Virus record (IMG/VR): IMGVR_UViG_3300020194_000883
Coordinates: 1 to 39,668 of that record
DNA from: a virus
Strand: one strand, 5' to 3'
DNA: 39,668 nucleotides
Position numbers and translations under genes: made by a program. Below, in pieces: positions 3,011 through 38,651 of the stretch (its first letter is position 1; each line of letters opens with the position of its first letter). The notes under the pieces are model-generated. The model was not told where the DNA came from. It saw only the letters and a program-made list of their open reading frames with translations, and ran no database searches.

Positions 3011-4996
3011 ATGGCAACAGTATTACAGATCAAACGTACCAATACAGCCAACTTACCGTCAACACTTGACCAAGGTGAGTTAGTTTATCTATACGACACA
3101 AGTTCAACAGATGGCGCAGCCGGGGGCAACGGCGGCCGCTTAATGATTGGTGACCCAACTACTAACACCAACAGTCCAATCAAGATCGGCGGATCTTATT
3201 ACACAGGTCTAATGGATCACACCATAGGCGTTGTAACAGCCGGCGCCGCAGCACTACTGGATGCCAACAAAAAGATTGACGAATGGAATGTTGACAACAT
3301 CAAGTTGGACGGCAACACTATCAGTTCAACAGATACAAACGGTAATATCACACTGTCGCCAGCTGGAACAGGTAAGACTGTTATTAGCAATGCTTTCATT
3401 GGAGACGCAAACACTTCACTGCAAGAATACATTGAAGACATCACAGGCGGAAGCATCACCAACGGTACTGCTATTACTATTGCATATGACGATACAGCAG
3501 GAACCAGCACAGTTAGTGTCACCGCAGGCGGTATTGTCACAGCACTGATTGCTGACGATGCTGTCACCGCAGCAAAGATTGCTGCTGGTGCTGTGGAAAC
3601 TGCAAACATTGCAGATAGTAATGTCACAACTGCAAAACTAGCAGACGATGCTGTCACAACGGACAAAGTGCTTGATGCTAATATCACTGATGCCAAACTA
3701 GCCAGCAATGCTGTAACAACTGCTAAAATCACAGATGGCAATGTCACAACTGCAAAGATTGCAGACGATGCTGTCACCACAGCAAAGATTGCCGCAGCCA
3801 ATGTCACAGAAACAGAGTTGGCAACTGATGCTGTTACTACAACAAAGATTGCAGATGGTAATGTCACAACTGCTAAAATCGCATCACTCAATGTCACAAC
3901 TACCAAAATAGCAAACAGTGCTGTCACAAGTGCTAAAATAGCAGATAGTGCAATCACAGCAGCAAAAATTGCAGACGGAGTGATTAACAACGATAAGATT
4001 ACAGATGCCAGTATTACCAATGCCAAATTAGCAAATGACGGTATCACAATCGGTGACACTGATACATCACTGGGCGGCACAATCACTGATGTTACAGGGT
4101 TAACCAGTGTTGCTGTAGACAACATCACCGTAGACGGTAATGCAGTTTCAACAACTGATACAGACGGTGACTTGGCACTAGCACCAAACGGCGAAGGCAC
4201 TGTTACTGTTCCATCAGGATACGAAAGCAGAACAGGATTCACAGGTGACTCACTGGTAAACAAAACATATGTTGACAATGTTGCCAGCGGTCTTGATGTC
4301 AAAGAGTCAGTGGTTGTTGCAACAACAGCCAACTTGACAGCCACATACGACAATGCAGCAGGAACACTCACAGGCGCCGCAAACGGTGCACTTTCATTAG
4401 ATGGTTACTCATCACTGGCAACAGGTGATAGAGTTCTTGTCAAAGACCAAACAGATGCAACCGAAAACGGTATCTATCAAGTCACTGTAGTAGGTGTTGA
4501 CGGAGTTAGCGCATTTGTTCTTACTAGAACACCTGATGCTGATGAAGCAGATGAACTCACAGGCGGCACATTCTTCTTTGTTGAACGTGGTACCAACTAT
4601 GTGGACACAGGGTGGGTTGCAACACACAATGGTGTACCTACTTTTGGAACCACAGAAATCACATTTGATCAGTTCAGTGGCGCAGGTTCTATCAATGCTG
4701 GCGCAGCGATTAGTAAAAACGGCAGCACACTGAATGTAAACGTAGATGATACAACTGTTGAAGTCAACGGCAGTGACGAACTACAACTCAAAGATGGCGG
4801 CATCACAAATGCTAAAATAGGAGCATCGGCTTCTATCGCACAAAGTAAGTTGAATCTAAACTCGGCTAACACAAGAGCAAATGCCACAGGTATTTCACAA
4901 TCAGACCTAGGTCTTGCAAGTTTTGACAGCGCACAGTTTACAGTCACAAATGGCTTTGCAACAGTTAAAAGATTGGATGCAGGGGCATACAGCTAA
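3011..4996 (+). CDS. Long tail fibre protein with decapeptide-repeat shaft
   Basis: This 661-residue protein has three parts. Residues 1-70 hold the shared N-terminal motif (QGELVYLYDT...GRLMIGD). Residues 181-340 are 16 consecutive 10-residue repeats of the type A-D-x-A-V-T-T-A-K-I, with hydrophobic residues at fixed positions, suggesting a repetitive trimeric shaft. Residues about 415-570 contain a domain seen in phage fibres (DRVLVKDQ..ENGIYQV, then GTFFFVERG..Y.DTGWV). The C-terminus probably forms the tip. RBS AGAGGAATAATC precedes the ATG. It is a receptor-contacting candidate; the receptor is not predictable. Confidence 0.85.
   Translation: MATVLQIKRTNTANLPSTLDQGELVYLYDTSSTDGAAGGNGGRLMIGDPTTNTNSPIKIGGSYYTGLMDHTIGVVTAGAAALLDANKKIDEWNVDNIKLDGNTISSTDTNGNITLSPAGTGKTVISNAFIGDANTSLQEYIEDITGGSITNGTAITIAYDDTAGTSTVSVTAGGIVTALIADDAVTAAKIAAGAVETANIADSNVTTAKLADDAVTTDKVLDANITDAKLASNAVTTAKITDGNVTTAKIADDAVTTAKIAAANVTETELATDAVTTTKIADGNVTTAKIASLNVTTTKIANSAVTSAKIADSAITAAKIADGVINNDKITDASITNAKLANDGITIGDTDTSLGGTITDVTGLTSVAVDNITVDGNAVSTTDTDGDLALAPNGEGTVTVPSGYESRTGFTGDSLVNKTYVDNVASGLDVKESVVVATTANLTATYDNAAGTLTGAANGALSLDGYSSLATGDRVLVKDQTDATENGIYQVTVVGVDGVSAFVLTRTPDADEADELTGGTFFFVERGTNYVDTGWVATHNGVPTFGTTEITFDQFSGAGSINAGAAISKNGSTLNVNVDDTTVEVNGSDELQLKDGGITNAKIGASASIAQSKLNLNSANTRANATGISQSDLGLASFDSAQFTVTNGFATVKRLDAGAYS
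3551..4030 (+). repeat. 16 tandem 30-bp repeats encoding decapeptides
   Basis: Sixteen consecutive 30-bp in-frame units encode a degenerate decapeptide with consensus A-D-x-A/N-V-T-T-A-K-I. Individual units vary at the DNA level (gatgctgtcacc, aatgtcacaact and so on), so the array is old or under coding selection. It can change length by recombination without shifting frame. Confidence 0.92.
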
Positions 4997-35554: not shown

Positions 35555-35773
35555 ATGACAGCAAAAGAGTTTAAATGGGCCAACGAGTTACACTGGATGG
35601 TCAAAGGACATCTTATCCCGCAAGAGTGGGCCAGAGATGAACAACAAGTAAAATCAATGGAAAACAGTTATTTCAAGCGCCTATGGGGAAACCACGAGTC
35701 GCAATATCGTAAAGACGGATTCGAAACCGCATGGGAGCAAAGATATGGTAACCTCGAAGATAGCGCAACTTAG
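35555..35773 (+). CDS. Hypothetical Trp-rich protein
   Basis: This 72-residue protein has six Trp, including LHWMVKGHLIPQEWARDE and FKRLWGNHESQYRKDG. It is basic and probably compact and helical. No domain is recognised. The end overlaps the next gene by 29 bp. The RBS is poor. Confidence 0.6.
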   Translation: MTAKEFKWANELHWMVKGHLIPQEWARDEQQVKSMENSYFKRLWGNHESQYRKDGFETAWEQRYGNLEDSAT

Positions 35774-36379: not shown

Positions 36380-36407
36380 TTGACATCCATATGTAATGTG
36401 TTATATT
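36380..36407 (+). promoter_or_regulatory. Sigma-70 promoter
   Basis: TTGACA, a 16-bp spacer and TATATT lie 24 nt before the ATG at 36432. The leader GGTGTTGTAAAAATGTAAAG matches that at 35966. Confidence 0.8.
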
Positions 36408-36431: not shown

Positions 36432-36638
36432 ATGACAATGGCAAAAACTGAAATCAGATACTGCAAGCGATGCTGGAAAGATACACGCCATGACATCTTC
36501 AAGGATGGTCCAGTGAGAGGTCAAAAGGTAGATAGCGTTGAAAGAACTTTCTTTGCTATAATCACTCTTGGATTTACCGAATTAATAACAGACAAATGGC
36601 GGCAGTGTCAGGTCTGTGACAGGAAGGAACGGGTTTGA
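36432..36638 (+). CDS. Small zinc-ribbon protein
   Basis: This 68-residue protein has two Cys pairs: YCKRCWKDTRHD (Cys at about 10 and 13) and QCQVCDRKE (about 60 and 63). They are separated by an internal hydrophobic stretch (TFFAIITLGFTELI). The CxxC...CxxC spacing fits a zinc ribbon with a long loop. ATG at 36438 is an alternative start. It lies just upstream of the tmRNA promoter, and a related CxxC microprotein is nested in the tmRNA locus. Confidence 0.75.
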   Translation: MTMAKTEIRYCKRCWKDTRHDIFKDGPVRGQKVDSVERTFFAIITLGFTELITDKWRQCQVCDRKERV

Positions 36639-36659
36639 TGGAGTTGTTAAAAAAAACTC

Positions 36660-36688
36660 TTGACAAACACTTAATACCAGTGTATAAA
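36660..36688 (+). promoter_or_regulatory. tmRNA promoter, sigma-70 type overlapping a late element
   Basis: TTGACA (36660-36665), a 17-bp spacer and TATAAA (36683-36688) form the sigma-70 site. The same bases 36683-36690 read TATAAATA, the perfect T4 late element. Transcription would start near 36695, just before the acceptor RNA. Confidence 0.8.
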
Positions 36689-36696
36689 TAGTATTG

Positions 36697-36757
36697 TAAC
36701 GTTGAAGCGATTTGACGACTGAACTGGACCCGGGGGCGGTACCCGGCGACTCCACCA
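36697..36757 (+). ncRNA. ssrA: Permuted tmRNA, acceptor piece
   Basis: This is the 3' (tRNA-like) half of a two-piece tmRNA. The 3' strand of the acceptor stem CGACTCC (36747-36753) is followed by encoded ACCA. The T stem is CCGGG (36730-36734) / CCCGG (36742-36746) with the loop GGCGGTA. The stem pairs perfectly with GGGGTCG at 36883-36889 and contains G36885-U36751 as the third pair, the alanyl-tRNA synthetase identity element. Location of the acceptor piece upstream of the coding piece is the alphaproteobacterial permutation. The 5' end is approximate. Confidence 0.9.
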
Positions 36758-36770
36758 AAAGGATTTTATT

Positions 36771-36881
36771 ATGTTTTGGCATAAACACACTTGGGAATGG
36801 TTTAAAACCGTAAACGCATATACGAAAACAAACCGTATTAGACGCAAATGCCAAAAATGTGGTAAAGTAGAATCCTTTTGA
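36771..36881 (+). CDS. 36-residue zinc-knuckle microprotein nested in the tmRNA intervening segment
   Basis: This 36-codon ORF (MFWHKHTWEWFK at the start, CQKCGK near the end) lies wholly between the two tmRNA pieces. It begins 13 nt after the acceptor CCA and stops 1 nt before the first base of the coding piece. AAAAGGATTTTATT gives an RBS at the right distance. An H-x-W near the N-terminus and C-Q-K-C-G near the C-terminus suggest a small zinc-binding fold. It is too short to prove by composition, but the fit to the gap is striking. Confidence 0.7.
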   Translation: MFWHKHTWEWFKTVNAYTKTNRIRRKCQKCGKVESF

Positions 36882-36882
36882 T

Positions 36883-37200
36883 GGGGTCGAAATAGGATCG
36901 ACAGGCAGGATAGAAGAGTGGAGTTACCGGGATGTAAGCGCCGTTACCGCGAACGAAAATGATAATTGCAAACGCAAATTTCAAACCTGAACTTTTCTTT
37001 GACTTTGAAGTCCTAGAAGCAGCCTAAGGGCAAGTTCGCGGTTAGGGGAGCCCCGGGCAACAGAATGCTCCCCACTTACAGACGGTAAAAAGGTTTAACA
37101 TAGTTAGACTGGCTGGGTAAGAGGTTGTGCCTATAAAACTAGGGTTAGAACATCGGGTTACAAATAGTGAGATACAAAACGCACCACTCTGAAACTGTAA
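36883..37200 (+). ncRNA. ssrA: Permuted tmRNA, coding (tag) piece
   Basis: The 5' strand GGGGTCG (36883-36889) is followed by the tmRNA-typical D-loop-like AAATAGGATCGACAGG. Helix 5 strands ACCGCGAAC (36946-36954) and GTTCGCGGT (37034-37042) flank the tag frame. The resume codon is GCA at 36968. The tag ANANFKPELFFDFEVLEAA ends at TAA 37025-37027; AA at the end is the usual protease-recognition feature. A pseudoknot-like stem GGGGAGC/GCTCCCC lies at 37045-37073. Helix 2 strands AGAGTGG (36915-36921) and CCACTCT (37184-37190) pair. The 3' end is approximate. Confidence 0.9.
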
Positions 37201-37213
37201 GGAACACACAAAA

Positions 37214-37312
37214 ATGATAAGTAACAAAAAATATCTTAGACTTCAGCGCATTACATTACCACTAGTGGGTATTTTAATGTTTGTTGGAACTATCTTTATG
37301 TTGATATCTTAA
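37214..37312 (+). CDS. 32-residue single-pass membrane microprotein
   Basis: This 32-codon ORF has a basic N-terminus (ISNKKYLRLQR) and one hydrophobic helix (ITLPLVGILMFVGTIFMLIS). RBS AAGGAACACACAAAA lies directly after the tmRNA coding piece. The layout, with a positive N-terminus inside, suits an inner membrane peptide (antiholin, holin-like or regulator), but this is inference. It is transcribed with the tmRNA precursor. Confidence 0.7.
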   Translation: MISNKKYLRLQRITLPLVGILMFVGTIFMLIS

Positions 37313-37862: not shown

Positions 37863-38651
37863 ATGCGTAATGTATTTATTACAACAGTAGCCGCTATGGC
37901 TATTTCAACAGCAGCATTTGCTGAAGAAACAACAGTAGCAACCCCAGTACTATCAGGTGAAGTATCACTTGACTTTGCTGAAACAGCAAACGACAAGTTT
38001 GGTGGAACAATGGGTCTGGACCTAGGTGTAGATATGGGTGGATTGGCAACAATCGATCTAGACTTTGTTGCAACAGACGGCAATGCAGTAACACTAGACA
38101 CATGGGCAGTTGGCACAACTGTAGCAGGCGTAGGTGTTGCAATTGGTGATGACCTAGGCGTAATGCCAGGCGCAGAAGGTGAGCAAACACTAGCAGCACC
38201 AGCAATGGCAGAAGCAGTACAAGTAACTGTAGGCGATGCAGTAGTTGCAGTAGGTCTTACAGACTGGACAACAGATGTAACAGACGTAAGCAACATTCAA
38301 GGCGCTTACACATTGAACGTAGCAAACTTAGATGTAACAGCAGCAGCTGACTACAACTTGGACAGTGAAAACACAGTACTAGGTGCAGGTGTAAGTGGTC
38401 TTGACTTAGGCGTAGCATCACTAGGTGGCGCAATGACTTACGATGTAGATGGTGAAACATTTGGTTTTGAAACTGTAGCAACACGTGGTGGCTTAACAGC
38501 ATACCTAAACGGTGACGACACAGACGCACTACAAAACATCGGTGGTGAGTACACAATGGATGTAGCTGGTGCAACATTTGCAGCAGGTGCTAACTACAAT
38601 GTTGACACAGAAGACTTTACTCCAACAGCAGGACTATCGTTCAACTTCTAA
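37863..38651 (+). CDS. Outer-membrane beta-barrel (porin-like) protein
   Basis: This 262-residue precursor has a clear Sec signal peptide, MRNVFITTVAAMAISTAAFA with cleavage after residue 20. The mature part has alternating beta strands rich in Val, Ala, Gly, Asp and Thr, and ends GLSFNF, the C-terminal aromatic signal for BAM assembly. The codon pattern (gca, gta, aca) and a strong terminator suggest high expression. It resembles small bacterial porins and is not a phage tail gene. It could alter host permeability, mask a receptor or block superinfection, as with Lc-type phage porins. Confidence 0.87.
   Translation: MRNVFITTVAAMAISTAAFAEETTVATPVLSGEVSLDFAETANDKFGGTMGLDLGVDMGGLATIDLDFVATDGNAVTLDTWAVGTTVAGVGVAIGDDLGVMPGAEGEQTLAAPAMAEAVQVTVGDAVVAVGLTDWTTDVTDVSNIQGAYTLNVANLDVTAAADYNLDSENTVLGAGVSGLDLGVASLGGAMTYDVDGETFGFETVATRGGLTAYLNGDDTDALQNIGGEYTMDVAGATFAAGANYNVDTEDFTPTAGLSFNF

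Follow-up and report, generated by a model that had tools for sequence, protein, structure and literature searches.

The spacer of alpha-type two-piece tmRNA genes in phages is a likely slot for small protein genes

The stretch of DNA analysed here (the window, 39,668 bases) is an entire linear virus record, and it carries a real phage gene for a permuted two-piece tmRNA of the alpha type. The original prediction had read the locus as a circularly permuted tmRNA gene in two pieces, carried by the phage and of alphaproteobacterial type, and this is confirmed. The covariance search that it had proposed, with the Rfam model RF01849 (alpha_tmRNA), matches 36656-37074 on the plus strand at 129.6 bits (E 2.9e-35), well over the cut-off of 50; RF04321 (tmRNA_permuted) matches 36696-37027 at 102 bits against a cut-off of 47; and ARAGORN reads a permuted tmRNA at 36665-37118 with the tag ANANFKPELFFDFEVLEAA. 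Several finer points read earlier from the letters were borne out as well: the acceptor piece, with an encoded CCA whose last base is 36757, lies upstream of the coding piece, whose G1 is at 36883, with intervening sequence between them; the acceptor stem GGGGUCG/CGACUCC pairs across this gap at 7/7 positions, with G-U as the third pair; and the tag of 19 residues ends in AA and is followed by a stop (ANANFKPELFFDFEVLEAA*). Several non-standard pairs are present in both Rfam alignments of the window tmRNA, outside the acceptor and T stems. The coding piece had been drawn from 36883 to 37200; its start stood, while its end had to be moved, as the covariance match stops at 37074 and similarity to the sister tmRNA L027 at about 37082. 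When the two pieces were folded together, the interaction was -12.3 kcal/mol, compared with a mean of -6.1 and a lowest value of -13.6 for 100 shuffled coding pieces, which taken alone lends modest support.

The intervening sequence, referred to here as the spacer, holds a feature that was absent from the original description of the locus, namely a small open reading frame (ORF) led by a Shine-Dalgarno-like (SD) motif and covering 86% of the spacer (Table 1). The probable promoter just 5' of the acceptor piece has counterparts, with both TTGACA and TATAAA at the matching place, in L027, in the cultured phage Melnitz and in several relatives with spacer ORFs. It should be noted that a strict promoter scan of the window did not list this site, and that a loose promoter pattern, found upstream in 27 of 31 ORF-bearing representatives, has a rate of 0.38 in shuffled sequence.

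Table 1. Features at and around the tmRNA locus of the window
Feature	Position	Strand	Evidence and remarks
Free-standing ORF upstream of the tmRNA, with a homolog inside the L304/L309 spacer	35555..35773	+	45% identical across 53 aligned residues; E 4e-16 (single comparison)
Probable promoter, just 5' of the acceptor piece	36660..36688	+	Read from the sequence: TTGACA (36660-36665), 17 nt, TATAAA (36683-36688)
tmRNA acceptor piece (tRNA-like 3' part, encoded CCA)	36696..36757 (5' end approximate)	+	RF01849, RF04321, ARAGORN; identity to L027 57/60 nt
Spacer (intervening sequence), 125 nt, expected to be absent from the mature two-piece tmRNA	36758..36882	+	Between CCA and acceptor-stem G1; unlike the 86-nt spacer of L027
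SD-like AAAGGA, right after CCA, 7 nt 5' of ATG	36758..36763	+	Sequence
Extended acceptor stem, 5' strand, includes the ribosome-binding site	36758..36769	+	AAAGGAUUUUAU pairs with GUAGAAUCCUUU in the predicted fold; 10/10 counted pairs
Nested ORF, 36 codons, MFWHKHTWEWFKTVNAYTKTNRIRRKCQKCGKVESF, with a C-x2-C pair	36771..36881	+	ATG at 36771; TGA at 36879-36881, 1 base short of the coding piece
Extended acceptor stem, 3' strand	36867..36878	+	Predicted fold, GUAGAAUCCUUU with AAAGGAUUUUAU
TGAT motif adjoining the coding piece and containing the TGA stop of the nested ORF	36879..36882	+	TGAT end common among phage spacers
tmRNA coding piece (5' part of the tRNA-like domain, tag, downstream structured part)	36883..37082 (3' end approximate)	+	RF01849 match to 37074; L027 similarity to about 37082
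Tag reading frame, ANANFKPELFFDFEVLEAA and stop	36968..37027	+	ARAGORN, sequence
Free-standing ORF downstream of the tmRNA, with a homolog inside the L144 spacer	37214..37312	+	tblastn E 3.8e-7 among viral loci; 62% over 26 aa

Elsewhere, the window encodes ribonucleotide reductase subunits, a thioredoxin-domain protein, a PAAR protein and virion structural proteins. Just 5' of the tmRNA, a 68-codon ORF with two C-x2-C pairs (36432-36638), preceded by a promoter-like site at 36380-36407 (11/12 matches), has no Pfam or PHROG match, and the same is true of a 262-aa ORF with a signal-peptide-like start on the 3' side (37863-38651); in L117, from a marine phage, a similar secreted-looking ORF start was seen by eye after the tmRNA. 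A 661-aa ORF at 3011-4996 contains a long repeat of the DDAVTTAKIA type, presumably akin to those of tail fibre proteins.

The original prediction also pointed to an alphaproteobacterial host, which we consider unsafe because the window tmRNA groups only with phage tmRNAs and because Melnitz, which carries an alpha-type tmRNA, infects a Methylophilales host. In a tree with about one third of the bacterial loci, the row standing for the window (L079, identical in the parts used) clusters with phage tmRNAs and with no bacterial row, and naming a host from the tmRNA tree was rejected for that reason.

Phage two-piece tmRNAs are of a known kind. The alpha-type two-piece tmRNA of Melnitz was published in 2022, and the consulted part of that report counts 53 two-piece forms among 133 unique phage tmRNA structures found with ARAGORN (PMC9004378). 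The consulted text of PMC11915505 covers 79 unique bacteriophage tmRNAs and, as contents of intervening sequences, mentions a single tRNA gene and a single repetitive element; the phrase 'open reading frame' is absent from the paper. The protein-coding spacer is the part for which the literature searched by title holds no earlier report. Melnitz resembles the window in its permuted gene order, encoded CCA, alpha covariance match, TTGACA and TATAAA upstream and SD-led spacer ORF; this ORF of 54 codons is unannotated, lies within the annotated SsrA feature and has its last 42 nt in the coding piece. The ORF of the window, in contrast, ends within the spacer. The account of Melnitz in the consulted part of PMC9004378 describes the tmRNA and a glutamine riboswitch and does not mention a spacer ORF. 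Two other arrangements in the consulted portion of PMC11915505 are comparable. Group I intron tmRNAs, some with homing endonuclease genes, likewise hold a protein gene in a removed segment, but there it is a self-splicing intron in the T loop. In the window the segment is the spacer of a permuted gene; it holds a small ORF and would be excised by tRNA processing. A permuted tmRNA with a tRNA-Ala gene has a gene inside the intervening sequence, as the window has, but there the gene encodes an RNA and belongs to one genome, nominally archaeal, whereas here protein genes occur in many phages. A group I intron in the window tmRNA was itself considered and rejected, the T loop being uninterrupted and no intron family being among the Rfam matches.

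How widely phage spacers hold ORFs was assessed from scans of IMG/VR. The first scan used an acceptor pattern and was not selected for ORFs; it returned at least 120 stretches, and phage alpha-type tmRNAs are therefore common. Two further scans (52 and 22 stretches) were selected for an SD motif after CCA, and ORF frequencies were thus taken from the first scan only. Both tmRNA pieces were present in 152 of 164 viral loci, the window included, the other 12 ending at most 91 nt from CCA. Among the matches listed from the first scan, 110 of 120 had both pieces, the median spacer was 67 nt and 27 spacers were of at least 100 nt; in bacteria, both pieces were found at 115 of 117 loci, with a median spacer of 27 nt and a maximum of 82 nt. 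Unique spacers of at least 90 nt numbered 30 of 92 in the first scan, again among the matches listed, and an ORF spans 18 of these 30, where shuffling of the spacer interiors gives an expectation of 2.89 (sd 1.49); the 18 are not independent, because they include two members of family F2, three of F3 and two of F4. An SD-like motif precedes the start in 15 of the 18 listed and is absent in L013, L041 and L054, of which L041 and L054 were afterwards excluded from the ORF label. The loose spanning rule is also passed by 2 of 5 bacterial spacers of at least 60 nt. A TGAT at the spacer end is seen in 92 of 115 unique phage spacers versus 24 of 115 bacterial ones. Among 289 genomes of the class of Ruegeria, 266 gave tmRNA-pattern matches, and the four longest spans among the matches listed, with spacers of 57-104 nt, had no comparable ORF by eye.

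The acceptor pattern also matches phage isolates of Rhodobacter, Ruegeria, Phaeobacter and Mesorhizobium, one of them with an annotated ssrA. Nine isolate loci besides Melnitz were compared: eight have a readable spacer, of 93-111 nt, and in L288 the pattern found no coding piece. None of the nine has an SD-led spanning ORF, and in L284 a GTG-started spanning ORF lacking an SD motif passes the loose rule. A query of the phage collection with the L117 tmRNA gave zero matches, and one with the Melnitz tmRNA returned four Melnitz records only; isolates with divergent tmRNAs may be missed, as these queries found so little.

By the position of their stops, the spacer ORFs form three groups: those ending 1 base short of the coding piece, those ending 11-15 bases short of it, and those that stop within it (+13 to +55). 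The first ORF of L302 (-94) is an exception. The 332-nt spacer of L302 contains, after CCA, a 72-codon ORF and a GTG-started ORF that overlaps its end and continues into the coding piece. In L005, L044, L122, L125, L304, L016, L024 and L291 the spacer ORF has no stop before the coding piece, and the cleaved spacers would be nonstop mRNA, a possible substrate of tmRNA. A further variant is seen at L295:587-623, where an acceptor-like end, CTCCACCA, is followed by an SD motif and a 205-codon ORF, with no coding piece within 800 nt.

Eight families of spacer ORFs could be tested for selection (F1, F2, F3, F4, F5, F7, F8 and the pair L296/L299), and purifying selection was found in seven of them, with dN/dS of 0.00-0.40 wherever a pair has a synonymous difference. 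Third codon positions are the most changed in F1, F2, F3, F4, F5, F7 and F8. In F1 (62 aa, nine distinct spacers) dN/dS is 0.10-0.31 in 34 of 36 pairs, the remaining two pairs having one change; the values are 0.07 for F2, 0.00-0.09 for F3, 0.06-0.40 for F4, 0.16 for F5, 0.10 for F7 and 0.06 for F8. When one pair from each of the seven families was pooled, pN/pS was 0.19 in frame as opposed to 0.96 and 1.20 in the shifted frames. In the pair L296/L299 no sign of purifying selection was seen (synonymous 7 of 24.3, nonsynonymous 23 of 80.7), and changes were too few in F6 (two) and in L044/L307, L303/L305, L066/L303 and L304/L309 (one each). We hold it very probable that phage spacers, as a group, code for proteins. 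The 23 representative products are mutually dissimilar at E 0.05, save for tails encoded by the coding piece (L016, L024 and Melnitz). Ten products were compared with PHROGs, with weak matches for seven (best E 0.006) and none for three, and F3 had no match in the phage collection. Among the 24 products listed, seven, including one fragment, reach the hydrophobicity of a membrane segment.

The contents of the spacer also change while the surrounding tmRNA is retained. Five spacer families (F1, F3, L144, L304 and L125) have homologs outside a spacer. A homolog of F1 lies in L021, where the tmRNA 1.7 kb away has a spacer of 29 nt; another is Melnitz gene 85, directly upstream of the Melnitz tmRNA (L291:4193-4645, MZ577097.1); F3 has homologs outside the spacer in L032, L035, L058 and L110, the L125 product has one in Pelagibacter phage HTVC010P, and the window itself carries two such free-standing relatives (Table 1). 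L003, with an F3 ORF in a 223-nt spacer, is 98-100% identical in the acceptor piece and 97-99% in the coding piece to L029 and L036, which have 5-nt spacers, and the large difference lies in the stretch between CCA and the coding piece. Similarly, identity between the window and L027 is 95% and 93% for the two pieces, and their spacers differ (125 versus 86 nt). Across 130 distinct tmRNA-plus-spacer sequences, 46 of which carry the ORF label, tmRNA identity reaches 90% or more in 71 pairs; for 45 of the 71, spacer identity, taken over the longer spacer, is below 60%. On the tmRNA tree the ORF label changes 28 times, at least 16 of which are forced by well-supported branches. This tree is a quick one, rooted at the midpoint; it has 170 rows, includes about one third of the bacterial loci and contains many weak branches.

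The ends of the window spacer are predicted to carry the acceptor stem on past CCA and thereby to cover the SD motif. Over 110 phage spacers, end-pairing amounts to 7.29 of 8 positions versus 5.64 with swapped partners, and over 96 bacterial spacers to 4.97 versus 3.50. In 31 representatives the predicted openness of the SD motif falls from a mean of 0.58 in the nascent RNA to 0.14 in the precursor; L141 behaves oppositely (0.44 in the precursor versus 0.36 nascent), and in L005 the SD region is still open in the predicted precursor (0.57). The contrast between nascent RNA and precursor is for the most part a consequence of the stem itself. Spacers that hold no ORF keep the end-pairing too, and the hiding of the SD motif may for this reason be a by-product of a processing stem. 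In hok-type mRNAs, pairing between the 5' and 3' ends hides the ribosome-binding site. The window would resemble them in that a long-range pairing of ends, here predicted, shuts off a small ORF, and it differs in that the pairing extends the acceptor stem of a tmRNA.

The end-pairing, the placement of AAGG within the stem, the drop in SD openness and the grouping of the stops led us to propose a model that joins them to the tmRNA, the ORF-filled spacers, the selection on seven families other than that of the window, the spacer turnover and the outside homologs found by sequence comparison. From one promoter, a precursor would be made that contains the acceptor piece, the spacer with its ribosome-binding site and ORF, and the coding piece. 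Before the coding piece is made, the tRNA-like domain would be unable to form, and in the nascent RNA the ribosome-binding site of the spacer would be exposed and the ORF translatable. As the coding piece emerges, the acceptor stem would form and run on beyond CCA through the stem of the spacer ends, which would hide the binding site and shut translation off. The folded precursor would then be presented to RNase P and the 3' tRNA maturation enzymes, by which the spacer would be removed and the two-piece tmRNA left. From sequence and predicted folding, we infer that the ORF of the window itself would be translated, that the small proteins would have a function, and that translation would come before folding, and folding before processing. 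That an alpha-type phage two-piece tmRNA has here a removed spacer serving as a slot for a small protein gene, we consider likely. A further proposal is put forward tentatively and is held to be less likely than not: that in marine phages the exchangeable slot is combined with a stem switch, by which one RNA may act first as a messenger and then, once the stem closes, as a tmRNA.

The strongest competing account, which we regard as quite possible although short of an even chance, is that the spacer is a permissive and neutral landing site, with no regulatory link between translation of the ORF and maturation of the tmRNA. The mutual dissimilarity of the representative products (coding-piece tails apart), the very different spacers of close relatives, the homologs outside spacers and the retention of the stem with or without ORFs agree with such a site. 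What speaks for a link is that AAGG at spacer positions 2-5, that is, within the stem, tracks the ORFs (present in 8 of the 18 unique spacers with a spanning ORF and in 1 of the 74 others, among the matches listed from the first scan; Fisher 3.8e-6), which places the SD motif in the strand hidden by the mature fold, together with the predicted loss of SD openness; both the AAGG placement and the openness could, however, still reflect compactness.

For the window itself, it must be asked whether the nested ORF is open by chance, in a spacer that is noncoding. Its length has a p of 0.007 against dinucleotide shuffles, and the chance that an ORF spans a spacer of such length and composition is 0.065. 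Homologs were sought in several ways: tblastn in phages gave one match at E 0.7; a degenerate pattern of the C-terminus of the product matches only L079 and L129; and a pattern of the N-terminus matches 11 stretches, the nine new ones being other reading frames that lack the remainder of the protein. The spacers of the contigs L079 and L129 are identical to that of the window, with flanks 98-100% identical, and the check for purifying selection thus had identical copies only. A search with a neighbouring protein found these two contigs again and a 330-kb contig, with no tmRNA in the 8.4 kb of it that were examined. Neither the nested ORF nor three of its neighbours had a Pfam match. As no diverged homolog was found, the coding status of this ORF is inferred, and a chance frame would also agree with the predicted folding of the spacer as a long hairpin (z -2.95) and with the sister tmRNA L027, whose spacer has no such ORF. 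On the other side stand the SD motif at a spacing of 7 nt from the ATG, the large share of the spacer that is covered, a weak match to a phage family (phrog_4188, E 0.006; the PHROG families matched are of unknown function), and the evidence for coding in seven other families that share this architecture. We consider that the spacer ORF of the window probably codes for a protein, and that a chance frame is unlikely.

It is also conceivable, but in our judgement distinctly improbable, that the ORF is translated mainly after processing, the released spacer being a mini-mRNA with an SD motif, start and stop of its own. These elements do all lie within the spacer in the window and in the other loci whose ORF stops 1 base before the coding piece. 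However, the released window spacer is predicted to keep the SD motif paired (0.06 open) and would end almost at the stop codon, and in the class with stops at +13 and later, inside the coding piece, the released spacer would be a nonstop mRNA.

Finally, the notion that the tmRNA is decaying in ORF-bearing phages, its transcript now serving as the mRNA leader of a small gene, is highly implausible: RF01849 scores are indeed lower there (66.9-129.6 bits) than in bacteria (214-313 bits, among the matches listed) and ARAGORN misses 15 of the 32 ORF-bearing copies scanned, reporting a tmRNA and tag in 17 (5/9 and 12/23), but all 31 ORF-bearing representatives exceed the Rfam cut-off, the tags that ARAGORN reads end in AA, the tmRNA is 93-99% conserved amid changing spacer contents, and the acceptor stem is paired 7/7 around all 44 spanned spacers, the free positions showing five pair sets, with covariation being visible at pairs 5 and 6 only because the search patterns fix most letters of this stem. 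For L148, L152, L144 and L074, ARAGORN reads very short tags (ANENFALAA, ANANYSLAA) compared with the 19 residues of the window.

A stretch regarded as the discarded spacer of an RNA gene looks coding in many phages, and such spacers would be an unnoticed place for small phage proteins, one that was missed in the annotation of Melnitz, a cultured and published phage. The locus may be a natural system in which a single transcript serves both as an mRNA and as the precursor of a ribosome-rescue RNA. If the switch proposed above is true, translation of the ORF and maturation of the tmRNA would be mutually exclusive, and ribosome traffic could therefore set the amount of tmRNA during infection. 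More broadly, it becomes testable whether phages keep a split tmRNA partly for the usable gene slot that it may provide.
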